DNA of 46,129 bases from assembly GCA_018714625.1 (NCBI GenBank), contig DVNE01000012.1:1-46129 (forward strand), in the 5' to 3' direction. A program made the translations under genes and the position numbers. Positions 1,469-22,584 of this stretch are shown one piece after another. The notes beneath the pieces were generated by a model. It was not told the DNA's origin. It did not search any database and saw only the letters and a list, made by a program, of their open reading frames with translations. This stretch comes from Candidatus Coproplasma excrementigallinarum. Its GTDB lineage: Bacteria; Bacillota; Clostridia; Christensenellales; Borkfalkiaceae. Within the stretch, counting starts at the first letter, position 1. The number at the start of each line of letters is the position of its first letter.

Positions 1469-3955
1469 TCAGATAAACCTGCCCGTTATGCTTTGGCTGT
1501 TGTCCTTAATTTCTTCGGGAGTGCCGCAGGCCACTATTCTGCCGCCCGCCTCGCCGCCGCCGGGCCCCATGTCTATGATATAGTCGGCATTTTTAATTAC
1601 GTCAAGGTCGTGCTCGATTACTATTACCGTTGCTCCGTGCTCTATAAGCGTGTTGAATATGCCTATAAGAGTGGCCACGTCGAGGGGGTGCAGCCCTATC
1701 GTGGGCTCGTCAAATACGAACACGCTGTCCGTCTGCACCTTACCCATCTCGCTTGCAAGTTTAAGCCTCTGTGCCTCTCCGCCCGAGAGGCTGGGCGTTT
1801 CCTCGCCTAGGGTGAGGTATCCGAGCCCCAACTCTTCCAGCACTTCAAGTCGCTGGCAGACAAGCTTCATATCGCGGCAGGCGTACAAAGCGGTGTGTAT
1901 GTCCATGCTCATTATTTGCGGCAGTGTAAGGCTGCGCCCGTCGCTGCATACAAAATGTATAAGTCCTGCGTCTTTGCCGTAGCGCGAACCGCGGCAATCG
2001 GGGCAGGGTATATCTACGTCGGGTAAAAACTGTACGTCAAGGCTTATCTCGCCCGTGCCGTCGCATACGGGGCAGCGCAGACTGCCCGTATTGTACGAAA
2101 AATCGCCCGCCTTGTACCCGAGCTTTTTTGCATCCGCCGTGCGCGCGAAAATTTTGCGCAGCTCGTCGTGTACGTTGGCGTATGTCGCCACCGTGGAGCG
2201 CACGTTTATTCCTATGGGCGTGGCGTCTATGAGCTTTACCTGGTCTATGCCGTCCGCATCGATTGAAATTATGTGCTCCGGCATCTTTTTGCCGCAGGAT
2301 CTGGCCTCGAGCGCGGGCACAAGGCTTTCAAGCACAAGCGTGGTCTTGCCCGAACCAGAAACGCCCGTAACCACGGTAAGCCTGCGTTTAGGTATTTTTG
2401 CCTCAAGCGGTTTTACCGTGTGTATTGCTCCCGTCTTAAGAGTGATTGCGCCGTATTCAAACATCTTCGCGCTCTCAGCCTGCTGTCTTACGGGCGGGCG
2501 TTCGGCCTTGTCCAGAAACCTTCCTATTTTTGAATTTTTATCGTGTATAAGTTGTTCAACCGTGCCCTGCGCAATAATATTTCCGCCCGCTGCGCCTGCG
2601 CCAGGCCCCATTTCGATTATATGGTCGGCAACGGAGAGTATCTGCACGTCGTGGTCTACAAGGATTACCGAATTGCCGTCGGCAACAAGGTCGTTCATTA
2701 CGCCTGTAAGCCCCACTATATTGGAGGGGTGCAGGCCGATTGATGGCTCGTCCAGCACATATAAAACGCCCGTCGTGCGGTTGCGTACGGCGCGCGCGAG
2801 CTGCATTCTCTGGCGTTCGCCCGTGGAGAGTGTGGAGGCCGCGCGGTCTAGCGACAGATACCCAAGCCCCAAATCGGTAAGCCGCTTTGCCGTGGCGAGG
2901 AAGGATAAGCCTATGCTGTCTGCCATTGGCCGCATGGGTTCGGGCAGGGTGGAGGGCACGTTTTTTACCCATTCAACAAGTTTTTCCAGCGTCATTTTGC
3001 AGGCTTCGTCAAGGGGTATGCCGCACAGCCTGGGCGCACGTGCCCCCTCGCACAGCCTCGAGCCGCCGCAGTCGGGGCAGACGTCCTGCTTCAAAAATTT
3101 TTCCACGCGCTTCATTCCGCTCTCGTCCTTCACCTTGGCAAGCGCGTTCTCCACCGTATAAATTGCGTTGTAGTAGGTAAAGTCGAGCTCGGTGGCCACG
3201 TCGGAGTTCTTCGCACGGTAAAATATGTGTTTCTTTACAGCGGGACCATGGAAAACTATAGCTTTTTCCTTTTCAGTAAGGTCGCGGAAGGGTACGTCGG
3301 TGCGCACGCCCATTGCGCGGCACACGTCGGCCATGAGCGACCACATCAGCGAATTCCACGGCGCAACTGCGCCCTCGTCTATCGTAAGGCTGTCGTCGGG
3401 TACAAGCGTGCTTGTGTCAACCGCGCGCACTATGCCCGTTCCGCCACAGGTTTTGCACGCGCCCTGGCTGTTGAATGAGAGGTCCTCGGCAGACGGTGCG
3501 TAAAATTGGGTGCCACATATGGGGCAAACAAGCGGCTTTCCGGCCGCTACATCTAGGGTGGGCGGAAGGTAGTGCCCGTTAGGACAGCGGTGGCAGGCAA
3601 GGCGGGAATACATAAGGCGCAGGCCGTTCAGAAGTTCTGTGCCCGTGCCGAAAGTGCTGCGTATTCCCGGTACGCCCGGCCGCTGGTGCAGGGCAAGGGC
3701 GGAGGGAACGTGCAGTATTTCGTCTACGCTCGCCCTGGAGGCCTGGGTCATTCGGCGGCGGGTATAGGTGGAGAGCGCCTCCAGGTATCTTCTCGAGCCC
3801 TCGGCATACAGCACTCCGAGCGCCAGGGAGGACTTGCCTGAGCCCGAGACACCCGCAATTCCGACAATTTCATTCAGCGGTATGTCAACGTCTATATTTT
3901 TAAGGTTGTGCACGCGCGCGCCGCGTATCTGTATGTATTCGGGAATGTGTTTCAT
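1469..3955 (-). CDS. uvrA: UvrA2-like excinuclease ABC ATPase (class II, short form)
   Basis: This cytoplasmic DNA-lesion-binding ABC ATPase has two nucleotide-binding domains. The first has Walker A GVSGSGKSS (about residues 35-43), signature LSTGERQRMQLA and Walker B VLYVLDEPSIGLH. The second has GVSGSGKTT, LSGGEAQRLKLA and VFVFDEPTIGLH. Zinc-binding Cys pairs are visible (CPIC, CKTC, CPDC, CPVC with CPDC). At 828 aa it is shorter than housekeeping UvrA (about 940). After LRLMYSRLACHRC the chain runs straight into the first zinc region, so the roughly 110-residue UvrB-binding domain appears to be missing. That matches UvrA2 proteins linked to tolerance of DNA-binding compounds. The GGAG-type SD is modest. 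The gene is transcribed alone, divergently from the recombinase-like gene. Confidence 0.88.
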   Translation of the reverse strand: MKHIPEYIQIRGARVHNLKNIDVDIPLNEIVGIAGVSGSGKSSLALGVLYAEGSRRYLEALSTYTRRRMTQASRASVDEILHVPSALALHQRPGVPGIRSTFGTGTELLNGLRLMYSRLACHRCPNGHYLPPTLDVAAGKPLVCPICGTQFYAPSAEDLSFNSQGACKTCGGTGIVRAVDTSTLVPDDSLTIDEGAVAPWNSLMWSLMADVCRAMGVRTDVPFRDLTEKEKAIVFHGPAVKKHIFYRAKNSDVATELDFTYYNAIYTVENALAKVKDESGMKRVEKFLKQDVCPDCGGSRLCEGARAPRLCGIPLDEACKMTLEKLVEWVKNVPSTLPEPMRPMADSIGLSFLATAKRLTDLGLGYLSLDRAASTLSTGERQRMQLARAVRNRTTGVLYVLDEPSIGLHPSNIVGLTGVMNDLVADGNSVILVDHDVQILSVADHIIEMGPGAGAAGGNIIAQGTVEQLIHDKNSKIGRFLDKAERPPVRQQAESAKMFEYGAITLKTGAIHTVKPLEAKIPKRRLTVVTGVSGSGKTTLVLESLVPALEARSCGKKMPEHIISIDADGIDQVKLIDATPIGINVRSTVATYANVHDELRKIFARTADAKKLGYKAGDFSYNTGSLRCPVCDGTGEISLDVQFLPDVDIPCPDCRGSRYGKDAGLIHFVCSDGRSLTLPQIMSMDIHTALYACRDMKLVCQRLEVLEELGLGYLTLGEETPSLSGGEAQRLKLASEMGKVQTDSVFVFDEPTIGLHPLDVATLIGIFNTLIEHGATVIVIEHDLDVIKNADYIIDMGPGGGEAGGRIVACGTPEEIKDNSQSITGRFI

Positions 3956-3994: not shown

Positions 3995-4023
3995 ATTATA
4001 TCATTTTTTATCAGTAAATTCAA
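3995..4023 (-). promoter_or_regulatory. Promoter of the uvrA-like gene
   Basis: On the minus strand TTGAAT (4018-4023), 17 bp, TATAAT (3995-4000) with TGA just before the -10. The predicted 5' UTR is about 30 nt. Confidence 0.7.
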
Positions 4024-4208
4024 GGGTGGAGAGCAATTCTGTGCTGCAAATTAAAAACGTTTGTACCTTTATAGGAAATGTTCGCTTTATTGGCAATAAA
4101 TTCAAAGGATATGGGCAGAGTAAAAACGTTGCATAAAGTTGTCTGCACAAGAAATATCCTTTATTGAATGTGTTTGCGCTTTGTAAAAATAATGTTGTCT
4201 TTTATTGA

Positions 4209-4245
4209 GCGTGGCGTGGCGCGCAATTTGTGCGCCACGCCACGC
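4209..4245. repeat. GC-rich inverted repeat in a divergent intergenic region
   Basis: A perfect 14-bp stem (4209-4222 with 4232-4245; arm GCGTGGCGTGGCGC) has a 9-nt loop. It sits between divergent promoters in AT-rich surroundings, where a terminator is not expected. The flanks 4024-4208 contain no gene that I can support. Confidence 0.6.
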
Positions 4246-4275
4246 GTTATTCTGTTAAAATTTCTCAGTAAAACT

Positions 4276-4299
4276 TCAGTAAATGTGTACTTTATTTGA
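4276..4299. promoter_or_regulatory. Putative operator O1 upstream of the recombinase-like gene
   Basis: The 17-mer CAGTAAATGTGTACTTT (4277-4293) is repeated in inverted orientation at 4396-4412 with one mismatch. The element itself is weakly palindromic, with core AAAnGTnnACnTT. It lies just upstream of the -35 box. Confidence 0.55.
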
Positions 4300-4310
4300 C
4301 TTTATTTTAT

Positions 4311-4352
4311 TTTGCAATTTTCATTGCAAAAGTAGGATTTTTATGCTAAAAT
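4311..4352 (+). promoter_or_regulatory. Promoter of the recombinase-like gene with overlapping dyad
   Basis: TTGCAA (4324-4329), 17 bp, TAAAAT (4347-4352). A perfect 8-bp inverted repeat TTTGCAAT/ATTGCAAA (4311-4318 with 4323-4330) covers the -35 hexamer, so a repressor or activator site could overlap RNA polymerase binding. Confidence 0.6.
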
Positions 4353-4389
4353 ATTGATTGTAATATAAGTTTTTATATTTTTTAATTAT

Positions 4390-4413
4390 CCAGTAAAAGT
4401 ACACATTTGCTGG
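4390..4413. promoter_or_regulatory. Putative operator O2 in the 5' UTR
   Basis: This imperfect 24-bp palindrome starts CCAGTAAAAGT and ends ACATTTGCTGG, with 18 of 24 positions symmetric. It contains the inverted copy of the O1 17-mer. It lies about 30-50 nt after the predicted start point and just before the SD AGGAGG (4425-4430). Confidence 0.6.
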
Positions 4414-4436
4414 AATAAAGCAAAAGGAGGAGAGTT

Positions 4437-5072
4437 GTGGCAAAGTTTGGGTATGCGCGTACATTGCAAAGAGGGCCGAGCTTAAGCAAGCAAATACAGG
4501 ATTTGTCGCAGTTCGGCGTGCCAAAGAGCAATATTTTTGTGGATGAACAGCCCGCTTCGCGCGCGTCTTTTGTTAAGTTGTTGCAGTCTCTTAAAAAAGG
4601 GGATTTACTTGTAATAAAAACGCTGCTTGTCTTAAACGAGGGCTACGAAAATATCTCGCGTGACTGGACGCGTATTGCGGGGACTATAGGCGCCGATGTA
4701 TGCGTTCTTGATTTGCCCGCTCTGGATACGCGTGCAGGCGATGATCGGAGCGTGGTGGTGTCAGCCGTGTCGCAGCTGCTTGATTTCTGTGCCGAAAAGG
4801 AGAGGGCGCACAGCGCGCTCCAGGCAAAGGGCATACAGTCGGCGCGGCAGCGCGGAGTAAAGTTCGGGCGTCCGCCCAAGCAGTACAGTAAGGCCTTTAT
4901 CACGACGGTGGAACGGTTCTGCAAAAAGGACATAACGCTTGAAGAGGCGCTCGCCGCAACCAAGATGAAGCAGTCCAGTTTTTATTATCACAAGCACAAA
5001 CTTGAGCTTTTGGGACTTATAGAAGGTTCGGCTGCCGAAGACAAGGGCGAGCCGCATCTTGGTACCAATTAA
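4437..5072 (+). CDS. Serine-recombinase-like DNA-binding protein, catalytic residues lost
   Basis: The 211-aa protein has the architecture of a small resolvase/invertase: an N-terminal fold starting FGYARTL (residues 4-10), a long helix (about 90-125), a GRPP linker (about 143) and a C-terminal HTH (about 150-190). In active enzymes the first motif is GYARVS, with the nucleophilic Ser where this protein has Leu10. The LDRLGR motif, which supplies two active-site Arg, reads LLVLNE here (63-68). The Arg equivalent to resolvase R45 (R42) is kept. Strand cleavage is therefore not expected, while DNA binding and dimerisation probably remain. The start is GTG with SD AGGAGG 6 nt upstream. The promoter is bracketed by two related palindromes, suggesting an autoregulating repressor. 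The next gene starts 95 bp downstream. Confidence 0.8.
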   Translation: MAKFGYARTLQRGPSLSKQIQDLSQFGVPKSNIFVDEQPASRASFVKLLQSLKKGDLLVIKTLLVLNEGYENISRDWTRIAGTIGADVCVLDLPALDTRAGDDRSVVVSAVSQLLDFCAEKERAHSALQAKGIQSARQRGVKFGRPPKQYSKAFITTVERFCKKDITLEEALAATKMKQSSFYYHKHKLELLGLIEGSAAEDKGEPHLGTN

Positions 5073-5076
5073 GGCG

Positions 5077-5126
5077 AAATTCTGCATGGCGGATTTATAT
5101 TATAGAGTGTTTTAAAGACAGAATTT
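5077..5126. repeat. Short inverted repeat between the recombinase-like and giant genes
   Basis: AAATTCTG (5077-5084) and CAGAATTT (5119-5126) flank an AT-rich stretch containing TATTAT. It could be a weak attenuator or a regulator site. No clear promoter is seen here, so 5168 may be read partly from the upstream promoter. Confidence 0.3.
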
Positions 5127-5167
5127 GCAAGTCGGAAAGAATTGAAAAAAATTACAGGAGGAACCAA

Positions 5168-8100
5168 ATGAAACTAAAAACCCAGAACGGGAAATTGCGC
5201 AGGGTTATAATTGCGGCGCTGGCAGTATGTTTTGCCGTGGCATTTGCGCTCGCAATGTCGTTGTTTGGCAACACCGCCTACGCAGCAGGCGGCAGGTACA
5301 ATACGTCTGTAACCATGCACAATATCTCGGCCGGCGTCAGAGAGACTAAGTACTACACCAATGTCGAGACGACCAATGACGACCAGGTAGTTGCCTATGC
5401 GATAGAGATTGATCTGAAGCAGAACACTCTCATTGCCGGGTACAAAGACTATGATACAAGCGGGAAGTGGGGGATGGACACCGTCCGCAACCACGTTGCT
5501 GCGGCTGAAACTGCCCGCCCGGTAAAAGTTGTTGCCGCAGTAAACGGCGACTTCTTTAATATGGCTACCGGCGAGCCTACGGGCGCGCTTGTAATGAATG
5601 GTAAAACTGTTCATAAATCCAACGGTCGTATTTACTTTGCTATATTAAAAAATGGAGATGCTGTTATACGCACCGGCGAAATTACTGATGACGTACAGGA
5701 AGCGATAGGTGCAGCCAGCATGCTTATACAGGACGGAACGGTTGTTCCCAGTCCCTCAGATACTACCAAGCAACCCCGTACGGCGGTAGGCATTAAGGCT
5801 GACGGAACTGTCGTTCTTATGGTGGCTGACGGCCGTCAGGCGCCCTATTCGAGCGGTTATTCGCTCTATGACCTCGCTTGCAAGATGCAGGAACAGGGCT
5901 GCGTAGTTGCGGCAAATCTTGATGGCGGCGGTTCTACTACATACCTTGCAAAGTATGCGGGAACTGATGACCTTACGCTTGCCAACAGTCCTTCCGACGG
6001 ACAGGAGCGTTCGGTATCTTCTTCGCTTTTGGTTGTCTCCAATGCGGAGCCTACCGGTATATTTGCAAGTGCGGAAATTACCCCCAACAACGAAGTTTAT
6101 ACTCCCGGCTCATCTGTTACATTTACGGCGCTGGGCGTTGATACGGCAGGTTTTTCTGCTGAAATTCCTGAAGAAGCGTATTGGAGAGTTTCGCAAGAGG
6201 ATGCTGCATATGGCGAAATTACCGAGCTTGAGGATGGCAGCGGTGAATTTATAAGCAAAGCTGAAGCTATCCCTTCAGCGGGTACGGATGTGACCGTGGA
6301 ACTCGTCTATCAGGATAAGGTTGTGGGCTCTTCTACAATAGAGTTGCGCAATCCCGATAGTCTTTCATTCTCGTCCTCGGCCGTAACTCTGGCGTTCGGC
6401 GAGCGCACAGATCTCGGTCTTACTGCACTTTGGCAGCAGCGTGAGGTGCATCTGCGCGACTCCGGCGACCTTGAATGGACTATTTCGGCCGGCAGAAAGA
6501 GCGACGGTTCGCCCAGCCTTGACGAGGAGGGCAATCCCCTCTATGCAGGTGCTATGGACGGCAATATATTTGTCGCCGATGAAGAGGCTACGGATACCAC
6601 TTCCACGGTAACGGTAAAATCCGCCGCCAATCCCTCCCTCACGGCGTCGGTAGAGGTTTCTGTTGGTCAAATGCCAACCGTAGTATGGGATTTTGAAGAT
6701 GTATATGATGAGGAAACGGGCACTACTATTCCTGCAGAAGAATATTATGACACGGAAAATGGAAATTCTGCATTTTCTGCATCAAATGCGGGGGCTGGAG
6801 CAATCACTAGCAGTTGTGTTGTAAGCAGCGAAGACGGATACCCTGTACGCATGGGTTCGCATTCGCTTCGCGTAGATTATGACTTTACCAATGTTAGCAA
6901 AACAGATGGTGCTTACTTTGGCCCGACATATGAAATGATTATTCCTGGTAAACCTACAGCTATAGGTGTTTGGATGTATACCCCGGCTAATACCAGAAAT
7001 CTTTGGCTTAGAGGCTATCTGTACGGGTATAACTATAATGAAGATGGTGAAGTTGCGTATGTTCAGAATGAGGATGGCTCCTATAGCCTTGATAATACCT
7101 ATAGGCAGCAGAGTGACCAACCCGCCGTTGTAAATTTTACAGCCCAGTCGCAAGTAGAGGCAGATGCTCTTGGAATACCGTATTATTCTGATTATTATCC
7201 TGAAGGGTGGCATTATTACGAGGCTCCAATAGCTACATATTCTACAGCTAATGGTGTAACAACCCTAACGCCTATTGCTGGTGATTTTTATGTCCTATAT
7301 CTTGGTCAGGCGCTGCGCCTTATGGTTGTGCCCGGCATAAATATGGGCGTCAATGAAAATGGCAAAGGCGATAAAAGTTATGTATACTTTGACGATTTCC
7401 AGTTCGTATATGGCTCACAGACTAACGACGTAAATGCACCTGAGATAACGTATGCATACATTGCAAATCCTCAGGGCGATATAGAAAACACAACGCTTGA
7501 AGACGGAGTGACCATTAACTCGTCAATGTTCCAGGTACATGCCCAGTATGTTGACTATACTGACAGATTTGATACCGGCGTAATACCTGAAAATGTACAT
7601 ATTTATATAGACGGCAACCAACTTGAATATGGTTCGAGAACCGGAACGCAGGATGCCGAAGGTAACGCAACTCAGAGTGAAGGAAATGTGCAGTCTGTCG
7701 ATTACTATGTTCCCAACGGCAGCCATGTGGTAACAATAGAAGTCGGTGACTATGCCGGAAACTATACCACGCAGAGCTATACTGTAAACGTGCAGGGTGC
7801 AAGCGAGTTCGAAACGGTTTCGCTTGTGCCTGCCGAAGGTGCGGTACCTCTTCTTAACAGTGATTACGGCCTCGAACTTTATGCTTCGGATATGAGCAAG
7901 GTGGAGAGCGTTGTATTCGAGCTCACGTTAAGAAGCGAATTTATGCTTGACGCCGAGCCTGCCGAAGGATTTAACGTTGTATGCAATCTTACAAATGCAG
8001 TCACCAACACCTACACGATAGAAGTGACGAGAAAAGAGGGCACAGAGGCGGCAGAGGGCGCCGGTGCGATAGCGTCTGTGAATATTTCTATCCCCAAGTC

Positions 8101-11100
8101 GCTCGCCGCAGGCATACCGCTCGTGTATTCCGTCGATACAAGCAAGGTTACATACATAGATGGCTTCCAGGAATATGTTTATAATGATGGCAGTGACGTA
8201 GGTACTCCCGTTATGAACAGTTTCTGTCTTGATCTGTCCGTATCAGTTGAAGCATATTATGAAATTTCTACCGATGTGCTTGTGGTTGGAAACAATAATA
8301 AGTACAGCGCCTACATCTATGTTACACACGCAGGAGAGCCCGCTTCAGGCGTAACAATTACTGTCGACGGAACATTGCTTGAGGGCGTTACGGATGAGAA
8401 GGGCAGAATAGCACTGCCTGAAAGTTTCCTTGATGATGCTGCAATAATGCAGGTTGTAGCCGAAGATGAAAACGGCAATGTATCTTTTGCAACCACTGCT
8501 TTCAGCCGTGTTCCGGCAGGAGAAGGCAATGGCCCGCTGTTTGTATCTGCCAAGGCAAATGAAAACAGCCAGACCGAGCAGAGCATAAGCTGGCTTGCCA
8601 ATCCTTTGAATACTGTGCAAAAGGCACTTATAAAGTATATGACCGTTGCCGAATATGAGGCAAACGGAAATTCATTTGATGGTGTAGAGGCGGTAGAAGG
8701 AACAAGCCAACTGCTTGATATAGGTGAGAGCAATAATGCGGCCGATAACAGCGCAGTTCTTGTGAACTCAATAGAGCTTGGCGGGTTAAAGCGCAATACA
8801 GAATATGTGTATATCGTTGGTGACGGAACTGTATGGTCTGAGGTTCATTATTTCTCCACGACAATAAAGGGTGGCAATACTGATTTCTTTGTATTGGGCG
8901 ATACTCAGGCAGAGAATGCTGGCAATGTTGAAGCCATTGCTCAGGCAATAGGTTCATCCGGCAAGGATTACAGTTTTGGTATTCAGACAGGCGACTTTAT
9001 AGACAGTGCAAGTTCTTATGCTCAGTGGGCTGAAATACTCAACGTGTTCTCTTCCAACTTCAGCAATGTAGACATGGTGCAGGTTCTTGGTAACCATGAA
9101 TATGCAGGTGATTTGGATGGTAATATAGCTGCAACGATAAATATGTTGCCCGGTACTGGCTATTATTCCGTAACTTACGGCAATGTGTATGTGGCAGTAA
9201 TAAGCTATACATATACGAGCAGTCTTGAAAATCTGCAGGAAGCGCTTGCCTGGTTGGTTGAGGATGCAAAATCCAGCGACGCCATATGGAAGGTTTTAAC
9301 GCTGCACCAGCCTGCATACTATACTAACCCTACCGGTGGTAGCGATTATGTGCATCAATATCTTCCAATAGCCGTAGACGAGGCGGGTATAGATGTTGTG
9401 TTCTCAGGCCATGACCATGCCTATGCGCGCACGCTGCCTATGACTGGCGGAAAGGTGGATGAGGAAAACGGTGCAGTATATTATATTGCGGGGTCAACAG
9501 GCGAAAAGTCTTACGATGTTGTATGGAATGACGCTTTCAATTTTGCAGTTGCTACCAATGACTATACCGCAATATATATCTCGGTTGAAGCAACTGACGA
9601 GACAATGACAATAACCACATATAATCTTGGCGGTACCGGTGTGGAAATCTTTGATACGTATACCATACGCAAAAACAATGCCTGCACTCAGAACGGCCAT
9701 AGCTATGTGTATGACGGCGAATATATCCTCTGCACTGAATGCGGATACTGCATGACCGACATAAGCTCATTCTCCGGACTTATAACCGATACTGAAGGCC
9801 GCCTTATGTATTTCGTAAACGGTGAAATGCATACCGGCTGGATGACTATCGGCGAGGATACATACTATTTCGGAGAGGATGGCTTAGGTGTAAACGGAAC
9901 GGTAACATTCCAGGAAAGCCATTGCTACGATAATTATGCAAGTGGGGACATTGACTATTATTTTGAAAATGGTCTGATGGTTGGCGGATATACAGGCAAA
10001 TATGGCGTAAGATACTTTGTTAACGGCGTAATGTATGAAGGTTGGATAGAACTCGAAGATGGATACTATTACTTCACTACAACCAATGACTTTGGCCTTA
10101 ATGGTGTGCGCCGCGGTGACAGGGCGACAGGAATTGCTACAGTATATACAAATACTCAGCCATACAATACTCTTTATAAAGTAACGTTGGATGAAACTGG
10201 TAAGTTTATCGGCGGCTATTTCCATTATCGTGATTACAACGGATTGACTTCATTCACTGATGTAAGGAATCCTCATTCCGAGGACGGAATATGGATTGTT
10301 TACCGTACAAATGAATGGGTAGATTATAACGGAAATCTTTATTATGCAAATGGTTCTGGCAATCTTGTAAAGGGACTTTATGCGGTTGACGGAGTAATGT
10401 ATGAATTTGATGACAGCGAAGGTTCTCCGGCTGAAACCAATTCATGCAAACTTATTGGCAAATACACCGGGTGGAATGGCGAAAAGTACTATGTTGAAGG
10501 TATAGAACAGAGTGGCTGGACTATAATTGATGGCGACTATTACTACTTTGCTACTGCCGAAGAAGTTGATTTTGCTCCTGATGCCGGATTTGAAGTTGGC
10601 GACAGACTCACAGGGAATGCGGCTGTTTACTCTCCTACACAGCCGTATGGAACATTCTACTACATTAACTTTGCTGAAGATGGTAAATACATATCCGGAG
10701 ATTGGCATAAGCGTTCTAATGGCGGTTATGCTCGTACACAGGTAGCTCCTCCTACGGATGATAGCAATATATGGATCAGCTACATAAATGGTGCGTTTGA
10801 GGTTGACGGAAAAGAGTACTATGCTGTTAATGGAATAATAGTAACCGGTGATTATGTTATAGACGGTGTGAAGTTTAAATTTAGTACTGAGGGGACTTCA
10901 CCTGAAGAAGGTCTTGGCGCTAAATTAGGCAGATACTACACAATTACGTTTATATGTGACGAAGAAGTCTCAGAAATATTTGAACTTTATCAGCAAAGTC
11001 TTATCGTACCTCCGGAATATGTAAAGCCCGTGGACAGCACGATGGTTGCAGCTTATGACTTCCTTGGCTGGTACAACGGTGAGGAGATGTTTGAGGATGG

Positions 11101-12295
11101 CATGGTGGCTTCGGCAAACGTTACATATACCGCAAAATATCAGAAGGTACACGCAGCGCTCTACTACGATATAGCAGAAGTGCTTGCCGCCCTCGAAGAG
11201 ACGGCAGAGAGTGGTACGCCTGCGGATAGGCACGACGCCGTAGACGACGTTACCGAACTCTATGAAACTCTTACGGCTGAGAATATTGCCGATGCCGAGG
11301 ATGAAGGTCTTTCCTTTGAGCTTTATGAACAGATGCTCGGCAAACTTTACGAAGTAAGCTTTATTTCAAACGGCATAACCATAACTTCAAAAACACTGTA
11401 CGAAGGCGAGGCGGTAAATGCGCCTATGTTCGACCCGATAAAGGCATCTTCGAGCAGCATGGTAGCATCCTATGCGTTCAAGGGCTGGTATAACGGCGAG
11501 GTACAGTGGACCGCTGGTGTTACAGCAACGGCAGACGCTACTTATACCGCAGCATTCAGCAAGGTTTACAGCACTACATATAACACTTTAAAGACGCTCA
11601 CGGATGCGCTTGCAGCAGCTCAGACACCTGCAGAAAAGCACATTGCGGTAAGCAACCTCAGGACTGTATATGCAACTCTCACCGAAAAGGACAAAACTGA
11701 CGCAGAGGCAGAGGGACTTTCGTTTGCTCAGTACGAAGAGATGCTCGGCAAGCTGTACGAAGTGACATTCGTTGCCGAAGGCAAGACGGTTTCCGTTACA
11801 GAATACTATGAGGGCGAGGCAATCGCCGCGCCTGCCGCACCTGAAAAGTCCGGCAACAGAGTAAAGAGCTACGAGTTCGACGGCTGGTACAACGGCGAAG
11901 ATGTGCTGGCAGAGGGTGCTACGGCAACATCCGACGCACTTTATGAAGCAAAGTACATTTTGGTATACACCGAGAAGTTTACGGCCCTGAAGGAGGCGCT
12001 CGAGGCGCTCGCAGAAGTGGGAGCAGACGGTTCGCTTGAGGCGCAGTACGAGGCTCTGAGCGCAGTATATGTGCTCTATGAAGAGTTTGGCAGCGCAGAA
12101 CTGCGCGACGCCGTGGCAGAGGGACTTTCATTCGCTCAGTATGAAGAGATGCTCGAGGCATACAACGGCGCAGCTCAGGGAGCTGAGGAAGACCTTGCAG
12201 CGGCAAGGATACTTGCAAACAGATTTGCGGATGCCGCAGCGGCAGTTATAGCGCTTGCGTCGGCGGCATACGTTACACTCGGAAGGAGGTGGTAA
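5168..12295 (+). CDS. Giant secreted phosphodiester glycosidase-metallophosphatase surface protein
   Basis: The 2375-aa protein has an N-terminal signal peptide (about residues 1-40, ending NTAYAAGG). Domains in order: a NAGPA-type phosphodiester glycosidase domain (about 60-290) with NGDFF at 126-130 and DGGGS at 252-256; Ig-like regions (300-500); a beta-rich CBM-like segment starting VVWDFEDVY (about 500-750); a possible cohesin-like or Ig region (about 880-1030); an Fn3-like lead-in; and a purple-acid-phosphatase-type metallophosphoesterase (about 1238-1500) with GDTQ (1244), GNHE (1308), His1380 and GHDH (1414-1417). A Cys-x2-Cys segment and glucan/choline-binding-like repeats (TGW, YEGW, QSGW; about 1530-1900) follow. 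Three units of about 140 aa come next (Flg_new/InlB-like GWYNGE plus a helical part ending GLSFAQYEEML, 1923-2340). It ends in a weak hydrophobic tail. No LPXTG is seen. SD is AGGAGG. Confidence 0.85.
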   Translation: MKLKTQNGKLRRVIIAALAVCFAVAFALAMSLFGNTAYAAGGRYNTSVTMHNISAGVRETKYYTNVETTNDDQVVAYAIEIDLKQNTLIAGYKDYDTSGKWGMDTVRNHVAAAETARPVKVVAAVNGDFFNMATGEPTGALVMNGKTVHKSNGRIYFAILKNGDAVIRTGEITDDVQEAIGAASMLIQDGTVVPSPSDTTKQPRTAVGIKADGTVVLMVADGRQAPYSSGYSLYDLACKMQEQGCVVAANLDGGGSTTYLAKYAGTDDLTLANSPSDGQERSVSSSLLVVSNAEPTGIFASAEITPNNEVYTPGSSVTFTALGVDTAGFSAEIPEEAYWRVSQEDAAYGEITELEDGSGEFISKAEAIPSAGTDVTVELVYQDKVVGSSTIELRNPDSLSFSSSAVTLAFGERTDLGLTALWQQREVHLRDSGDLEWTISAGRKSDGSPSLDEEGNPLYAGAMDGNIFVADEEATDTTSTVTVKSAANPSLTASVEVSVGQMPTVVWDFEDVYDEETGTTIPAEEYYDTENGNSAFSASNAGAGAITSSCVVSSEDGYPVRMGSHSLRVDYDFTNVSKTDGAYFGPTYEMIIPGKPTAIGVWMYTPANTRNLWLRGYLYGYNYNEDGEVAYVQNEDGSYSLDNTYRQQSDQPAVVNFTAQSQVEADALGIPYYSDYYPEGWHYYEAPIATYSTANGVTTLTPIAGDFYVLYLGQALRLMVVPGINMGVNENGKGDKSYVYFDDFQFVYGSQTNDVNAPEITYAYIANPQGDIENTTLEDGVTINSSMFQVHAQYVDYTDRFDTGVIPENVHIYIDGNQLEYGSRTGTQDAEGNATQSEGNVQSVDYYVPNGSHVVTIEVGDYAGNYTTQSYTVNVQGASEFETVSLVPAEGAVPLLNSDYGLELYASDMSKVESVVFELTLRSEFMLDAEPAEGFNVVCNLTNAVTNTYTIEVTRKEGTEAAEGAGAIASVNISIPKSLAAGIPLVYSVDTSKVTYIDGFQEYVYNDGSDVGTPVMNSFCLDLSVSVEAYYEISTDVLVVGNNNKYSAYIYVTHAGEPASGVTITVDGTLLEGVTDEKGRIALPESFLDDAAIMQVVAEDENGNVSFATTAFSRVPAGEGNGPLFVSAKANENSQTEQSISWLANPLNTVQKALIKYMTVAEYEANGNSFDGVEAVEGTSQLLDIGESNNAADNSAVLVNSIELGGLKRNTEYVYIVGDGTVWSEVHYFSTTIKGGNTDFFVLGDTQAENAGNVEAIAQAIGSSGKDYSFGIQTGDFIDSASSYAQWAEILNVFSSNFSNVDMVQVLGNHEYAGDLDGNIAATINMLPGTGYYSVTYGNVYVAVISYTYTSSLENLQEALAWLVEDAKSSDAIWKVLTLHQPAYYTNPTGGSDYVHQYLPIAVDEAGIDVVFSGHDHAYARTLPMTGGKVDEENGAVYYIAGSTGEKSYDVVWNDAFNFAVATNDYTAIYISVEATDETMTITTYNLGGTGVEIFDTYTIRKNNACTQNGHSYVYDGEYILCTECGYCMTDISSFSGLITDTEGRLMYFVNGEMHTGWMTIGEDTYYFGEDGLGVNGTVTFQESHCYDNYASGDIDYYFENGLMVGGYTGKYGVRYFVNGVMYEGWIELEDGYYYFTTTNDFGLNGVRRGDRATGIATVYTNTQPYNTLYKVTLDETGKFIGGYFHYRDYNGLTSFTDVRNPHSEDGIWIVYRTNEWVDYNGNLYYANGSGNLVKGLYAVDGVMYEFDDSEGSPAETNSCKLIGKYTGWNGEKYYVEGIEQSGWTIIDGDYYYFATAEEVDFAPDAGFEVGDRLTGNAAVYSPTQPYGTFYYINFAEDGKYISGDWHKRSNGGYARTQVAPPTDDSNIWISYINGAFEVDGKEYYAVNGIIVTGDYVIDGVKFKFSTEGTSPEEGLGAKLGRYYTITFICDEEVSEIFELYQQSLIVPPEYVKPVDSTMVAAYDFLGWYNGEEMFEDGMVASANVTYTAKYQKVHAALYYDIAEVLAALEETAESGTPADRHDAVDDVTELYETLTAENIADAEDEGLSFELYEQMLGKLYEVSFISNGITITSKTLYEGEAVNAPMFDPIKASSSSMVASYAFKGWYNGEVQWTAGVTATADATYTAAFSKVYSTTYNTLKTLTDALAAAQTPAEKHIAVSNLRTVYATLTEKDKTDAEAEGLSFAQYEEMLGKLYEVTFVAEGKTVSVTEYYEGEAIAAPAAPEKSGNRVKSYEFDGWYNGEDVLAEGATATSDALYEAKYILVYTEKFTALKEALEALAEVGADGSLEAQYEALSAVYVLYEEFGSAELRDAVAEGLSFAQYEEMLEAYNGAAQGAEEDLAAARILANRFADAAAAVIALASAAYVTLGRRW

Positions 12296-12297
12296 CA

Positions 12298-12891
12298 ATG
12301 AAGAAGAAGATAATATTCATGGCGACGGCAGCCGCAGCGATAGCGGTGCTGTTTGCAGCAGGTTGCAATACCAACCCCGGAACTACCGGCCCCAATGGCG
12401 GAGAGCAGACGACCGAGTATACAAAAATAACCCGTGCATATGATGGCGCGGATGAGGCAGCTTCGCTTGAAAAGAAGATAACGGTATCCTCCGGCGAAAC
12501 AGTGCTTTCCTGGGAGACGGAAACTTATACCAAGGCAGAAACAGGGTATACGTTGGTCGTCAATAGCGGAGTGCTCAACGAAATAGGCGAGGGCGACGGA
12601 ATGTATGCCGAAGAGGAAGAGACCACGAATGTATCCGGCATAAAGCTCGGGGCATTCCCCAAGGAGAGCGACTTCATTCTGCCCGTATACGGCGATGTTG
12701 AAGACACGCTTACGCTTACAGCAAAGCTCTCTGCAACATACCTCACTTCGATAGGATTTGCTGCGGGAAATGCTGAAGGCGACGTGGATTTTGAAGCCGT
12801 AGTCACGGCGGGTAAATTTGTATCGCTCGACCTTGCCTATACTTCTTCAAACGGCAACAGCGTTACCATTTCGTTTGATTTTGCATATTGA
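12298..12891 (+). CDS. Hypothetical lipoprotein
   Basis: The 197-aa protein has a clear lipoprotein signal: Lys-rich start, hydrophobic stretch and lipobox FAAGC with Cys23. After a Gly/Thr/Pro-rich linker the mature part is acidic and probably all-beta, with many Thr/Val alternations and a final VTISFDFAY. I recognise no domain. The ATG at 12298 is preferred over the in-frame GTG at 12289 because SD AAGGAGG lies at 12283-12289. It starts 2 nt after the giant gene's stop, so the two are almost certainly co-translated, and it may be an anchor or partner of that surface enzyme. A hairpin follows. Confidence 0.8.
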   Translation: MKKKIIFMATAAAAIAVLFAAGCNTNPGTTGPNGGEQTTEYTKITRAYDGADEAASLEKKITVSSGETVLSWETETYTKAETGYTLVVNSGVLNEIGEGDGMYAEEEETTNVSGIKLGAFPKESDFILPVYGDVEDTLTLTAKLSATYLTSIGFAAGNAEGDVDFEAVVTAGKFVSLDLAYTSSNGNSVTISFDFAY

Positions 12892-13150: not shown

Positions 13151-16100
13151 ATGGAGCAGTTGGTAAAGGTTTCTGTAATAGTTCCCTGTTATAATTCCGG
13201 AAAATATATAAAAAACAGTGTGTATTGTCTGTTGACCCAATACTACAACAATGTCGAAATTATATGTGTCAACGATGGCAGCACAGATAATACGGCTGAG
13301 GTGCTTGAAGAGCTTGCCGCGGCCAATGAAAATATTAAGGTCATCACGCTGGAAGAAAATCGCGGTCTGTTCAATGCCCGCATTGTCGGCGCAGACAATG
13401 CATCCGGTGAGTACATAGCATTTATGGACAGCGACGACCAGATAACTAAAAACTGGATAAGTAGTCTTGTTTTTAAAGCAAAAAGTTCTGGCGCTGATCT
13501 TGTGTTTGGTGACATGCGTAAACTTGGCAGTGTACCAAATAATACCATTGACAGGCACAGGGCCTGCTACTATAACCTTGACCCGCTTCGGTCTGTAACA
13601 TTAGATACCGATGGACGAGGAGTGCTCGATTTATTTATGAAGATGCATGGGCTTTGCTCTCACTATCACTATGTATGGAATAAGCTGATTCGGCGCGATT
13701 TGTGGGAGGCATGTTTAACAGATTTAAATATGCTTAATTCAGTCAAGACGCATCTTGTAATGGGGGAGGATATTGCTTTTTCTGCAACGCTGTTTATGTT
13801 TGCAAAAAAAGTAGTGAATGTTCATAACGCTTATTATATCTATTGCATTCATAATGAACAGAGTGTAAATACAGACAGTGCTGAAAAATACAGAAAGAAT
13901 ATTGAAGACCTGGTTGCTGTTTTTGATTATCTGGAAAGTCTGCTTGAAAAACATGGTTATTTTGAGAAGTATGCCACTGAATATAAATTATTGAAACAGC
14001 GCTATGGAATGATATATATAAGACTTGGAAGAGGCCTTGTTTTAACTGAAACATACAGAAAATATGTGTCGGATACTTTTCTTCAGGAAGAAATCGAGAA
14101 TATTAAAGATATAAAGTCTGAGCTTTTTCTCAATCAGATGACAAATACGGCAGGCATAGATGACGTTTACTACTCTTTGCTTGATAAGATATATTCACCT
14201 GATATAAAGGTTATAAGCTTTGATGTTTTTGATACTCTTGTATTTAGGCCTTTTGCCAAACCTCTCGATATGTTCATCTGTCTTAACAAACCTTTTACAG
14301 AGATTTTCGGGATAAATTCATATGTTGACTTTGCCTCGATAAGGCACTATGCCGAAGAGCACTGCCATAAGATTCAAAAAGCGTTGAGACCAGGTATAGA
14401 AGAGCCTACTTTTGATGAAATATATGACCTTATTGCTGAAGTTTATGGCTATGACAGGGAAAAATTGCGTGAAGTTCAAAAGTTGGAAATTGAAAATGAA
14501 ATTAAATTTTCATACCCCCGCAAGAGTGCTTGCGAATTATTTGAAATTGCCAAAAATACTGGCAAGAAAATTATACTCGTCAGCGATATGTATCTGCCTC
14601 GTTCATGCATTGAAGCTATACTTCAGAAATGTGGAATAGAAGGGTATGATAAGCTCTATCTTTCTAACGAATATCATCTTACAAAACATTCGGGCAGATT
14701 ATATAGTGCAATATCAAGGGAATTAAAAGATTTTGCTTTGCCTCCGCAATTTTATCATATAGGTGATAATTACGATTCAGATGTAGCAAAAGCTAAAGGG
14801 GCAGGCTGGCATGCGCAGCACTATCCTGCGCCAATGGGACTTTTGCAGGGAAGAAATCCTGGAATTTTTACAGGCTTGTCGTACAATAAAATATTCTATA
14901 TTTCAGATAGGTACACAGATATGGATTTGGCGTACTACAGCTATACCGGACTTAGAAGTTGTCTGGCTGTAGTAGCAAATAAAATTTTCGACTTCCCCTA
15001 TGTAAGTTTCAATATAAACAGTGACCTCAATGCAGATCCAAAGTTTGTAGGTTATTTTATAACCGGTATGCATGTTTTTGCTATTGTGCGGTGGCTTATA
15101 AAGAAGACTAGAGGTAAGGGAATAAGAAAAATTCACTTTGCGGCAAGAGATGGTTACCTTATAAAGAAGGCCTACGATATTCTTTCGGAGGGATTGACAG
15201 GTTTGCCGCAAAGCAGCTACATACGCGTTTCCAGAAAGTCGTTTGCAATAGCTGATATTAAAAGCTTTAACGATGTCCACTCTATAGTGCAGAAATTGAA
15301 TTATGCCAGTCAAACGCCTGAAAGTATCTATGAATTATTCAAGCCCGTTATGACTACAAGGGCTCTTGATGCCTATGCGGCTTATAGAGAGAAAAACAAC
15401 GCTATGAGCCTGACGCCGTTTGTGGATAAAGAGCAGTTTGCTGCTTTTATGAAGGATTTTTATATATCCTATCTGCAAGACGCTACGTTTGAAGAATATG
15501 ACGAAATGCTCAAAAAATATTTCTCTGAAATTTTTGCGCCTGAAGATGTATTCTTTGATATAGGGTATTCTGGCCGTGTTGAGTTGGTTCTGAATAAGCT
15601 TTTAGGTTTTAAAATCCGTTCCTATTATATCCATTCAAATAATGAGTACCTTGAAAAACGTTGCTTTTTAGGCGATATTGAAAATGAATGCTTCTATGAT
15701 TATAAGCCAATAGTGACCGGTGTCGTGCGTGAACATATTATATCTGAATTAGCGCCTTCCACAATAGGGTATGCCTTGAATGATGGAAAGTTAGAGCCTG
15801 TTTTTGATAAGTTTGATATGAACTATCCTACTCAGTTCGTAACACGGTTAGTGCAGGAGAGTGCAATCGATTTTGTGCGCGATATGCGTACATATTTCGG
15901 GAAAGGCGCAGTTGATATATTTGCGCGTGATTATGAACTTTCTAGGCCGTTCGAATATTATCTGCATTTCTCGAGATCTTTTGACAGAAATATTTTTGGC
16001 GATCTTGAATTTGAAGATGATATGGGTGAAGGACATACTGTAAGCGGTATAGATTTCTGGAACAGATCTTTAGAAAGAATTCATTTCGGAGAAACTGCCG

Positions 16101-16228
16101 TCTACAAAGAGCCGGCAATGCCGTCTGCGGTGAAAAAACGTTCACGTCTCATGCGCGCATTGTATCTGTTCCTCTTCGACAGAAAAACTTTTAATCGGAA
16201 GCTCAAAAACAAGCTTCATAAAAAATAA
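13151..16228 (+). CDS. GT2 glycosyltransferase-HAD phosphatase fusion
   Basis: The 1025-aa protein starts with a GT-A family 2 glycosyltransferase domain (about residues 1-240): VSVIVPCYN, VNDGSTDN and the metal-binding MDSDD at about 93-97. After a helical stretch comes a HAD-type hydrolase domain (about 352-560) with motif I SFDVFDTLV, VSDMYLP and motif IV GDNYDSDVAKAKGAG. The remaining 460 residues, with FAARDGYLIKKAYD, form a region I know only as an extension seen in surface-polysaccharide HAD/GT proteins. It has no signal peptide and is likely cytoplasmic or membrane-peripheral. A role in making a phosphorylated surface glycan is inferred. The gene is visibly richer in A+T than its neighbours, which is typical of transferred surface-polysaccharide genes. 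Its stop overlaps the next start by one base. Confidence 0.8.
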   Translation: MEQLVKVSVIVPCYNSGKYIKNSVYCLLTQYYNNVEIICVNDGSTDNTAEVLEELAAANENIKVITLEENRGLFNARIVGADNASGEYIAFMDSDDQITKNWISSLVFKAKSSGADLVFGDMRKLGSVPNNTIDRHRACYYNLDPLRSVTLDTDGRGVLDLFMKMHGLCSHYHYVWNKLIRRDLWEACLTDLNMLNSVKTHLVMGEDIAFSATLFMFAKKVVNVHNAYYIYCIHNEQSVNTDSAEKYRKNIEDLVAVFDYLESLLEKHGYFEKYATEYKLLKQRYGMIYIRLGRGLVLTETYRKYVSDTFLQEEIENIKDIKSELFLNQMTNTAGIDDVYYSLLDKIYSPDIKVISFDVFDTLVFRPFAKPLDMFICLNKPFTEIFGINSYVDFASIRHYAEEHCHKIQKALRPGIEEPTFDEIYDLIAEVYGYDREKLREVQKLEIENEIKFSYPRKSACELFEIAKNTGKKIILVSDMYLPRSCIEAILQKCGIEGYDKLYLSNEYHLTKHSGRLYSAISRELKDFALPPQFYHIGDNYDSDVAKAKGAGWHAQHYPAPMGLLQGRNPGIFTGLSYNKIFYISDRYTDMDLAYYSYTGLRSCLAVVANKIFDFPYVSFNINSDLNADPKFVGYFITGMHVFAIVRWLIKKTRGKGIRKIHFAARDGYLIKKAYDILSEGLTGLPQSSYIRVSRKSFAIADIKSFNDVHSIVQKLNYASQTPESIYELFKPVMTTRALDAYAAYREKNNAMSLTPFVDKEQFAAFMKDFYISYLQDATFEEYDEMLKKYFSEIFAPEDVFFDIGYSGRVELVLNKLLGFKIRSYYIHSNNEYLEKRCFLGDIENECFYDYKPIVTGVVREHIISELAPSTIGYALNDGKLEPVFDKFDMNYPTQFVTRLVQESAIDFVRDMRTYFGKGAVDIFARDYELSRPFEYYLHFSRSFDRNIFGDLEFEDDMGEGHTVSGIDFWNRSLERIHFGETAVYKEPAMPSAVKKRSRLMRALYLFLFDRKTFNRKLKNKLHKK

Positions 16229-20546: not shown

Positions 20547-21260
20547 ATGATAAGGGTTGTTATCGTTGAGGACGAAGGCTCCTCCGCGGAAACATTGAAA
20601 GAGTTTATAGATAAATACTGCAAAAAGGCCTCGCTCGCGTATGAAGTGAAGATTTACGAAAATCCCGTATCCTTTCTGGACGCATACAGAGTGGATTTTG
20701 ATGTAATCTTCCTTGATATTCTGATGCCCGATATGGACGGAATACGCGTGGCGCACAAAATACGCGAATCCGATTCAGAGGTGCCCATAATCTTCGTCAC
20801 CAATATGCGTCAGTTTGCAATAAAGGGATATGAGGTGGGCGCGCTCGACTTCATAGTAAAGCCCGTCACATACTACGGCTTTGAAATTGCCTTCCGCCGC
20901 GCTCTGCGCGACCTCGAACGCAACAAGGAGGCGCAGCTGACCGTTTCGGTTAAGGGCGGCGTCAAGAGGGTCAATATCTCCGATATCCGCTATGTTGAAG
21001 TTTCCAAACACCGCCTTATATATCATACTGTCGGCGAGGATATAGAGACGAACGGCAATTTAAAGGATGTATATTCCTACCTGTATGATTTTGGCTTCCG
21101 CCGCTGCAATCACTGCTACATAATAAATATGCGATATGTTACCGAAGTGCTGGAAAGCTCCATCATGGTAGGCCCCGAATCTGAAGAGCTCCAGGTCAGC
21201 AGGTCCAAGAAGAAGGACTTTATGGCCGAATTGTTGAAATATTGGGGGGGGGTAAGATAG
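20547..21260 (+). CDS. LytTR-family response regulator (AgrA-like)
   Basis: The 237-aa cytoplasmic transcription regulator has a REC domain (1-120) with acidic pocket E8-D9, phospho-acceptor Asp57 in IFLDILMPDMDG and the conserved Lys in FIVKPV (about 108). A LytTR DNA-binding domain (about 130-235) follows, with VKRVNISDIRYVEVSKHR and FRRCNHCYIINMRYV. LytTR regulators control exoproducts, quorum responses or cell-wall genes. SD AGGAGG lies just upstream. The last codons run through a tract of nine G (21244-21252) that ends 9 nt before the kinase start. No AgrD-like peptide or AgrB gene is beside it, so it may sense something other than a cyclic peptide. Confidence 0.93.
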   Translation: MIRVVIVEDEGSSAETLKEFIDKYCKKASLAYEVKIYENPVSFLDAYRVDFDVIFLDILMPDMDGIRVAHKIRESDSEVPIIFVTNMRQFAIKGYEVGALDFIVKPVTYYGFEIAFRRALRDLERNKEAQLTVSVKGGVKRVNISDIRYVEVSKHRLIYHTVGEDIETNGNLKDVYSYLYDFGFRRCNHCYIINMRYVTEVLESSIMVGPESEELQVSRSKKKDFMAELLKYWGGVR

Positions 21261-21261
21261 T

Positions 21262-22584
21262 ATGTCCTTCCAGGAATTTTATAACTCGATTTGGAATATC
21301 GAATATATTTTGCAGATACTGGTTGCCGAGGCCATGTGCTGCCTGAATTTTCAGCGCAGGAGCAGGTTTGTATTGCGCGCAACGCTCAGCGTTGCTGTAT
21401 GTATAGGTCTGTATATGCTGATGCGTGCGGCCGATAGTCTGATTGCCTTGACTTCGCTGCCGCCGTATGTGTACGGAGTAAAGCTCATTGCTGCCTTCGC
21501 TCTCTCTATTGCGGCAATGTTTGTCTGTTTCAAGGAGTCGGGTTGGAGCATAGTGTTCGTTGACTGCGCGGCGCAGTCCATGCAGCATACGGTGTTTGAA
21601 ATTGCAATGCTCATCACGCGCGAGCTTATAACCGATATAGGCATCGCGGCCTATATTTTTATCAACCTTGCGGTGTTCATTGTGGGATATGCGGTACTCT
21701 TTCTGATGTTCGTATACAAAATGAACAGCAAAGAATTTTCCAATGTGGTAAACAAAAGGCTTATATTCACCGTAATAATCTGCGTTGTAATATGCTTCGG
21801 CATAAGCTGGTACGGGCAGGGTTTTTATTCCGGCGCGGGCGCTATTCTGTTCCGCTTTACTGTCTGCATGCTCTGCTTTATTCTGCTTGCCTATCAGTTC
21901 AGCTTCCTCGACAATTCCACTATGGTCATACAGAACGGCAGACTTCAGCAGATACTCATAGACTCGCAGAAGAAGTATGAACTTCTGGACGCCAAGCGCG
22001 AAATAATAAACATAAAGTGCCACGACATAAAAAAGCAGTTGCGCGAATACGGCGAAAAGTTGCGCATAGACGACGATTCGTTGCACGACATGCTCGACGC
22101 GGTGAACATATATGATACTTCCATGCACACCGGGAACAGAGAGCTGGATATTCTGCTGTCTGATAAAGCGCTGCACTGCGAGCAGGAAAAAATATCTTTC
22201 GGCGCAATCGTCGACGGCGCAGCTTGCAGCTTTATGCAGCCGATGGATTTGTACGCGCTGTTCGGCAACCTGCTCGATAACGCCATAGAGGCGGTAAAGC
22301 AGCTCAAGGACCCTGCAAAGGCGGTAATCAACCTCAATGTGCGCCGGGAGGGCAAGTTGCTTCTTATACATTGCGAAAATTACTTCAGCGGCGACATTAA
22401 GTTTGTGGACGGCCTGCCCGTCACAACAAAGGACAACGAGGCTTATCACGGTTACGGCATCAAATCTATAAAGCATATCGCCGAAGAGTACAACGGCATA
22501 ATGTCCTGTTCTGTCGACGGCGATGTGTTTTTTGTGAATATAATTCTCTCTATCGGCAGCAAGACGAAAAGTATGACCAATTAA
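21262..22584 (+). CDS. GHKL sensor histidine kinase (AgrC-like)
   Basis: The 440-aa membrane protein has about six N-terminal transmembrane segments (residues 10-220). A coiled linker and a dimerisation helix follow, with the phospho-acceptor His254 in KCHDIKKQL. The GHKL ATPase domain has N-box NLLDNAIEAV (about 335) and G-box GYGIKSIKHI (about 397). It would phosphorylate the regulator encoded one base upstream of its ATG. The G9 tract just before the ATG probably serves as an SD. The N-terminal membrane domain is the sensor and gives no clue to the ligand. A strong terminator follows. Confidence 0.92.
   Translation: MSFQEFYNSIWNIEYILQILVAEAMCCLNFQRRSRFVLRATLSVAVCIGLYMLMRAADSLIALTSLPPYVYGVKLIAAFALSIAAMFVCFKESGWSIVFVDCAAQSMQHTVFEIAMLITRELITDIGIAAYIFINLAVFIVGYAVLFLMFVYKMNSKEFSNVVNKRLIFTVIICVVICFGISWYGQGFYSGAGAILFRFTVCMLCFILLAYQFSFLDNSTMVIQNGRLQQILIDSQKKYELLDAKREIINIKCHDIKKQLREYGEKLRIDDDSLHDMLDAVNIYDTSMHTGNRELDILLSDKALHCEQEKISFGAIVDGAACSFMQPMDLYALFGNLLDNAIEAVKQLKDPAKAVINLNVRREGKLLLIHCENYFSGDIKFVDGLPVTTKDNEAYHGYGIKSIKHIAEEYNGIMSCSVDGDVFFVNIILSIGSKTKSMTN

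Follow-up and report, generated by a model that had tools for sequence, protein, structure and literature searches.

A clade of putative pseudo-invertases encoded behind invertible-promoter elements of surface-glycan and surface-protein genes

We analysed a 46,129-nucleotide stretch of DNA from Candidatus Coproplasma excrementigallinarum (contig DVNE01000012.1), referred to here as the window, and found that the ORF at 4437..5072 on the plus strand encodes a small serine recombinase of 211 aa that is almost certainly without catalysis, as judged from its aligned residues. The protein belongs to a clade of recombinases that share this loss, and its gene lies directly behind an element with the architecture of an invertible promoter. 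This pseudo-invertase has probably been kept to regulate a phase-variable surface-glycan or surface-protein operon through site binding. Phase-variation switches are usually described as a promoter with its invertase; a dead invertase as the first product would add a layer of feedback, and the arrangement poses a testable question, namely whether a dead recombinase sets the switching rate or holds the state of a surface-glycan locus.

Fold, catalytic residues and relatives of the encoded protein

The ORF opens with a GTG codon, lies six bases downstream of the Shine-Dalgarno sequence AGGAGG (4425..4430, plus strand), and contains no internal stop, in agreement with an earlier note, made from the letters of this DNA alone, that had described an intact frame and a strong ribosome-binding site. 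The product has an FGYAR start, a long helix spanning residues 104-138, a GRPP linker and C-terminal helices. Its AlphaFold model (mean pLDDT 87.7) has the recombinase fold, comprising a catalytic domain, a long E helix and a C-terminal helix-turn-helix (HTH), and the closest solved folds are the Tn3 (Foldseek E 2.5e-11) and gamma-delta (5.9e-11) resolvases. A profile built from the window protein and 48 relatives, mostly active enzymes, matched Sin (2r0q) at E 1.7e-34 and gamma-delta resolvase at E 4.7e-27. The window protein itself gave no match to PF00239 (Resolvase) at E 0.1 and no resolvase call from NCBIfam. Annotation likely misses the dead-invertase layer of such loci, since the Pfam Resolvase family at E 0.1 matched none of the five clade members scanned.

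Nine catalytic positions, numbered as in gamma-delta resolvase, were compared by alignment with 32 active relatives. All 32 are canonical at R8, S10, R45, D59, D67, R68, R71, E124 and R125, and none of the eleven clade rows is. In the window protein, the nucleophilic serine, present in every active relative, is replaced by Leu10 (codon 4464..4466, plus strand), while the columns of D67, R68 and R71, which hold D, R and R in all active rows, contain L, V and E; residues Val65 to Glu68 (4629..4640, plus strand) fall in the columns of gamma-delta resolvase Arg68 and Arg71. Residues R8, R45, D59, E124 and R125 are still present. The resolvase layout with replaced catalytic residues (Leu10 and the loss of two active-site Arg) that the earlier note had described is thus confirmed against the active relatives.

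Substituted relatives were sought at two levels. An initial table, from which rows shorter than 140 aa were excluded, comprised 119 rows, 14 of them non-canonical; 12 of the 14 correspond to seven distinct loci of the window's group, five of them listed twice, and the other two are a fragment at a contig edge (G030) and a separate short protein (G066). The latter (L070, G066:C22, 4527-4982, minus strand) is a 151-aa family protein that lacks both the catalytic Ser and the HTH half. The seven loci are the window, G085, two copies in G015, G029, G062 and Christensenella sp. UBA3944, the last belonging to a different GTDB family from the window genus. A search of 398 genomes from the window family and 40 from that of UBA3944, in which short match lengths drew attention to them, added four loci from another genus, two in G503 (C6 and C118) and two in G490 (C12 and C30), for a total of at least 11. 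By taxon, six of the eleven belong to the window genus, four to a further genus within its family and one to another family. They form a monophyletic group with support of 100/100, divided into two subclades, in a tree of 48 rows. The window gene is single-copy in its own genome; across its genus, 28 of 93 genomes contain a match to the window protein, most of the matches being active enzymes. A scan of viral contigs returned seven distant relatives at 31-39% identity.

Within the clade, R71 is missing from all eleven loci, S10 from ten and R68 from nine. Position 10 is occupied by Leu in four loci, Gln in three, Thr in two, and Ala and Ser in one each, which does not agree with the earlier expectation of a clade conserving Leu at this site; the one locus that retains the serine, G490:C30, is without R45, R68 and R71. 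The eleven-locus clade also speaks against the scenario, raised in the same note, that orthologues are intact and the window copy is a lone decayed allele.

Comparison of the window gene with its nearest relative, G085, gave a dN of 0.214 and a dS of 1.354, the latter near saturation, and the corresponding values for the G015 pair, in which each copy lacks the catalytic residues, were 0.042 and 0.554. These values support continued purifying selection after the loss of catalysis and, together with the single origin of the clade, uphold the suggestion that the gene is maintained. To compare the two halves of the protein, the identity of residues 140-192 was divided by that of residues 1-99 in all pairs of 32 active rows and, with the stop-containing copy set aside, of ten dead rows. 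The active set excluded five tree rows, four of them outgroup-like and one apparently frameshifted at its C-terminus. The ratio had a median of 0.58 among active pairs (maximum 0.94, with 0 of 496 at or above 1) and of 1.17 among dead pairs (minimum 0.90, with 38 of 45 at or above 1), although pairs are not independent. The linker and C-terminal HTH, residues 140-192 of the model (4854..5012, plus strand), form the better-conserved half in the clade, and the comparison indicates that constraint has moved from the catalytic half to the DNA-binding half. A clade with an intact HTH had been anticipated in the note.

The reading frame is intact in ten of the eleven loci, the decayed copy, G015:C8, carrying two stops. 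At a further locus (L114, G115:C3, 7774-8010), a switch is followed by a truncated remnant of the dead-clade gene, about 27 residues and a stop. Because these two loci have decayed, loss of the dead gene appears to be tolerated.

The promoter element and its counterparts

Upstream of the gene lie two 22-bp dyads. The left arm (4277..4298) reads CAGTAAATGT-GT-ACTTTATTTG, and the right arm (4391..4412), its inverse, reads CAGTAAAAGT-AC-ACATTTGCTG. Serine-recombinase crossover proceeds through 2-nt overhangs, according to excerpts of a published account (PMC9943657), and, because each dyad flanks a 2-bp centre, the arms have the architecture of serine-recombinase crossover sites. They are the only matches at three or fewer mismatches in the window genome (1.43 Mb, 76% complete). 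The segment between their centres (4288..4401, 114 bp centre to centre) would be invertible, as suggested by relatives with the same architecture in opposite orientation, and contains a promoter, TTGCAA-17-TAAAAT with a TG before the -10 element (4324..4352, plus strand), which is directed at the gene, the orientation we call ON. With inverted repeats flanking a promoter, the element has an arrangement expected of an inverton. The earlier note had pointed to the stretch 4276-4413 as a binding target; two recombinase-type sites do lie there, but the note overlooked that they enclose a putative invertible promoter. It also listed a near-consensus promoter, which is present, but the region 4000-5200 contains three promoter-like matches against 2.2 expected from shuffles, and a weaker match within the segment (TTGCAA/TAAAGT) faces the opposite direction. 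The window promoter gains weight only because its hexamers and spacing recur in all nine related switches described below. Just outside the left arm is a terminator-like hairpin with a 17-pair stem (4209..4245; score 27, shuffle maximum 12), which would stop both read-through from upstream and the transcript produced in the OFF orientation. Farther upstream of the switch, a divergent gene at 1469-3955 encodes a UvrA-like protein of 828 aa.

A putative invertible promoter precedes all eleven dead genes, five in the ON and six in the OFF orientation. Nine switches are of the window's type, hereafter dead-type, a set that includes that of the truncated G115 remnant and one in G029:C16, where there is no recombinase gene. 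All nine have GT in the left centre, AC in the right centre and the promoter TTGCAA-17-TAAAAT; three are ON and six OFF. The G029:C16 switch (L113, 7598-7714) stands directly before a DUF6270 gene. Segments align in the same sense within an orientation class and in the opposite sense between classes in 36 of 36 pairs, with some small margins, with pairs involving G029:C16 close to shuffles, and with pairs that are not independent. The second subclade has four elements of its own, with TTGACA promoters, two ON and two OFF. Their centres are AC and GT in three of the four, and a palindromic AT occupies both arms at G503:C6, where additional weak promoter matches also occur. Both promoter orientations are therefore seen in comparison between species; mapped on the tree, orientation changes twice, against a shuffled mean of 2.5, a result compatible with flipping but of little statistical power. 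Of 13 switches scanned, 10 have, upstream of the left arm, a hairpin whose score exceeds those of all 50 shuffles. The exceptions are UBA3944, G503:C118 and G062; the last was scored away from its true left arm, at which a perfect 20-nt hairpin is found.

Distances between arm centres are 105, 106 and 114-116 bp in dead-type switches, 95, 104, 105, 115 and 116 bp in active-type switches and 114, 115, 117 and 126 bp in the second subclade. The spacings of 95, 104-106, 114-117 and 126 bp correspond to about 9, 10, 11 and 12 helical turns. Over 18 dead-type and active-type switches, a 10.5-bp periodicity gave R 0.93, a value that overstates the strength of phasing because the 18 include several that come from a shared genome or descend from a close ancestor.

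Similar elements accompany active members of the family. With a cut of 15-nt arms that differ at no more than two positions and are separated by 60-140 bp, an inverted repeat was found in 20 of 37 upstream regions from the genus, against 22 of 410 shuffles, two rows having no upstream sequence; the repeat was present in five of six dead rows and 15 of 31 others, three of which are not active enzymes. Core sites matching those of dead-type switches precede active invertase genes in other species. By reading of ORFs, an element lies between an invertase and a divergent surface-lipoprotein-like gene in G001, G078 and G074, although a simple promoter pattern found no promoter in the G074 element, and G035 has four elements in both orientations. 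Elements with the same core stand before surface-lipoprotein-like genes, adjoining active invertases or apart from them, at L109, L110, L111, L112, L115, L116 and L066. At L131 (7790-8000), an active relative from an uncultured Eubacteriales bacterium sits behind a perfect 15-nt inverted repeat, AAAAGTAC, with the same core and other flanks. Crossover-like sites thus appear to be tied to the recombinase family by position.

The stronger proposition that the whole recombinase family lies behind inverted repeats was rejected. In a scan of 80 loci on genome contigs, some of them of the window genus, eight upstream regions passed the cut, against 12 of 400 shuffles; four of the eight were dead-clade loci, and two other dead-clade loci, L121 and L126, missed the strict cut. 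Searched across the 93 genomes of the genus, the core pattern, which is restricted to centre distances of about 92-122 bp, occurred at 48 places in 32 of them, whereas a reversed control gave 16. Sixteen of the 48 places, with longer arms and a promoter between them, were taken as switches, and the rest were read as chance.

Genes behind the switches

The window gene is followed on the plus strand by genes for an exported protein of 2375 aa with NAGPA glycosidase and calcineurin-like phosphoesterase domains (5168..12295; Pfam and homologue), a 200-aa protein that is lipoprotein-like by eye and has no Pfam match at E 0.1 (12289..12891), and a glycosyltransferase family 2 protein with a HAD domain (13151..16228; domain match and homologue). 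The NAGPA protein is 68% identical over 1303 columns to the protein encoded just downstream of the dead gene in G503:C118, and the 13151..16228 product is 37% identical, over its length, to that of the gene directly after the dead gene of G029:C8.

Neighbours could be counted at ten loci, the dead gene of G085 sitting at a contig end. The next gene on the same strand encodes a UDP-sugar dehydrogenase in three (G015:C3, G062 and G490:C12), a glycosyltransferase in two (G029:C8 and G490:C30), a large exported NAGPA protein in two (the window and G503:C118) and a DUF4422 protein in UBA3944. The dehydrogenases of G490:C12 and G015:C3 are 75% identical across genera. Behind the dead gene of G503:C6, the next gene has no match to a Pfam family, and the decayed G015:C8 copy is followed by an ORF that is response-regulator-like by eye. 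Counting DUF4422 among them, glycan or surface genes come next in eight of ten dead loci. The dead gene probably heads a surface-glycan or surface-protein operon, a structure deduced from strand and spacing and a gene context that the earlier note had overlooked. Elsewhere in the window (20547-22584), a LytTR response regulator is followed in the same direction by a 440-aa ORF; the response-regulator-like ORF at G015:C8 is similar by eye.

A model for the dead protein and its alternatives

The reading that we favour, retention as a site-binding regulator, can be set out as follows. An ancestral serine recombinase would have lost catalysis while its fold, long helix and DNA-binding domain remained. 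The dead gene would be the first transcribed from an invertible promoter that toggles the operon ON and OFF, and its product would be made only in the ON state. The protein would bind both arms as dimers, the arms being the putative crossover sites of its ancestor; we judge such binding reasonably likely. Bound there, it could block an active paralogue acting in trans and so form a latch that holds the ON state; it could also, or instead, join the arms without cutting, across whole helical turns, and repress the promoter that they enclose. We consider control of inversion no less likely than plain repression, and a latch on the ON state, itself a tentative proposal, is our first choice over promoter repression. 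In the Tn3 system, recombination is blocked when crossover half-sites are occupied by S10A subunits, which are catalytically inactive, as stated in excerpts of PMC9943657; a dead subunit would therefore be expected to be dominant, and a latch would therefore be the simplest effect where an active paralogue is present. We speculate, while holding the idea to be doubtful, that such a switch is self-latching, with the ON promoter making a dead copy of the invertase that occupies the flip sites, and that a conserved pseudo-invertase family serves this purpose. If true, the switch would provide the cell surface with a heritable memory.

The weak point of this explanation is the missing invertase, because only large serine recombinases were found in the window genome and G062, and none in G313. 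Small active paralogues occur in four of the seven searched genomes bearing a dead-clade gene or remnant (G015, G029, G085 and G115); the search detected no small active invertase in either the window genome (76% complete) or G062 (81%), and G313 (94%) has no PF00239 match at E 0.001. The absence from G313, whose switch nevertheless keeps strict arms, would be expected if the protein were a plain autorepressor or activator that binds both arms, perhaps looping the promoter like paired operators, and if the segment inverted rarely or never. Near whole-turn spacing fits such a repression loop too, TnpR of Tn3 offers a precedent in excerpts of PMC7157771, and the mixing of ON and OFF on the tree does not exceed chance, with little power either way. 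If orientation were fixed, however, the OFF state at six of the eleven dead loci would leave the operon without its switch promoter, and the opposite, non-palindromic centres kept in nine of nine dead-type and three of four second-subclade switches are unneeded for binding alone; we regard this account as rather unlikely.

Should the gene instead be a functionless, decaying relic of an invertase that formerly stood behind the switch, free variation of catalytic residues across the clade would be expected and is seen, as are one copy with two stops and one truncated remnant. Purifying selection after catalysis was lost, a single origin spanning two GTDB families with frames intact in ten of eleven loci, and an HTH better conserved than in active enzymes all argue to the contrary, and make a relic improbable. 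The lack of any other small invertase in three of the seven searched genomes with a dead-clade gene or remnant could also mean that the protein is still a recombinase and works through other residues. No Ser or Thr consistently replaces Ser10, however, and with R71 absent from all eleven loci and R68 from nine, we hold this to be very improbable.

Known systems share parts of the arrangement. Sin, gamma-delta/Tn3 resolvase and the Hin/Gin invertases have the fold, domain order and dyad sites with 2-bp centres in common with the window system, but possess the nucleophile and active-site arginines that the window protein has lost. TnpR of Tn3 is catalytically active and, unlike in the window system, its promoter is not known to invert. 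It is named for repressing the transposase from res sites and, like the window protein at its predicted sites, is a serine recombinase whose binding sites contain its own promoter, as described in excerpts of PMC7157771; the earlier suggestion that a recombinase turned repressor would be a new role consequently falls away. While a resolvase acting as a repressor is already known, the dead, switch-embedded clade appears to be new. The first gene of Bacteroides polysaccharide operons encodes the NusG-like UpxY. In the window operon, of a different phylum from Bacteroides fragilis, a dead recombinase takes that place. UpxY is an antiterminator, according to the accessible text of PMC11892184. Invertible promoters likewise precede surface-polysaccharide loci in Bacteroides fragilis, under one serine-type master invertase, Mpi, in the excerpted account of PMC5903667. 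The nuclease-dead TnpB derivative TldR, which represses flagellin, is a further parallel, being an enzyme of mobile-element origin that, having lost catalysis, retained DNA targeting (at the window only predicted) and controls a surface structure, according to excerpts of PMC13418256. It differs in being RNA-guided, of unrelated fold and phage-borne. The dead recombinase clade would be the serine-recombinase counterpart of the TldR repressors. Among open-licence PubMed Central papers, we found no description of an invertible promoter followed by a conserved serine invertase that has lost catalysis. In the accessible parts of two inversion surveys (PMC11892184, PMC5903667), Clostridia-linked invertases belong to the tyrosine type, and neither there nor in the accessible parts of reviews is a dead serine invertase mentioned.

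One candidate for the invertase acting in trans was considered. An active group linked to MATE genes (G014, G061, G029:C1, G085:C2 and G115:C42) is found in three of the six genomes of the genus that carry a dead-clade gene or remnant, and in 5 of all 93 (hypergeometric p about 0.0015, uncorrected for relatedness); none of its upstream repeats passes the cut, and, as it was not found in G015, G062 or G000, it is no more than a lead. A separate protein of about 150 aa, with an N-terminal zinc ribbon (by eye) and a C-terminal HTH resembling the one in the dead clade, is full-length in only 2 of 93 genomes. Its genes, at L072 (G031:C82, 3061-4753, minus strand) and L071 (G068:C122, 153-602), precede glycosyltransferase-like genes. 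The G031 locus has a promoter-like stretch flanked by a perfect inverted repeat of 20 nt (3564-3583/3721-3740), and an ORF that is tyrosine-recombinase-like by eye adjoins it.
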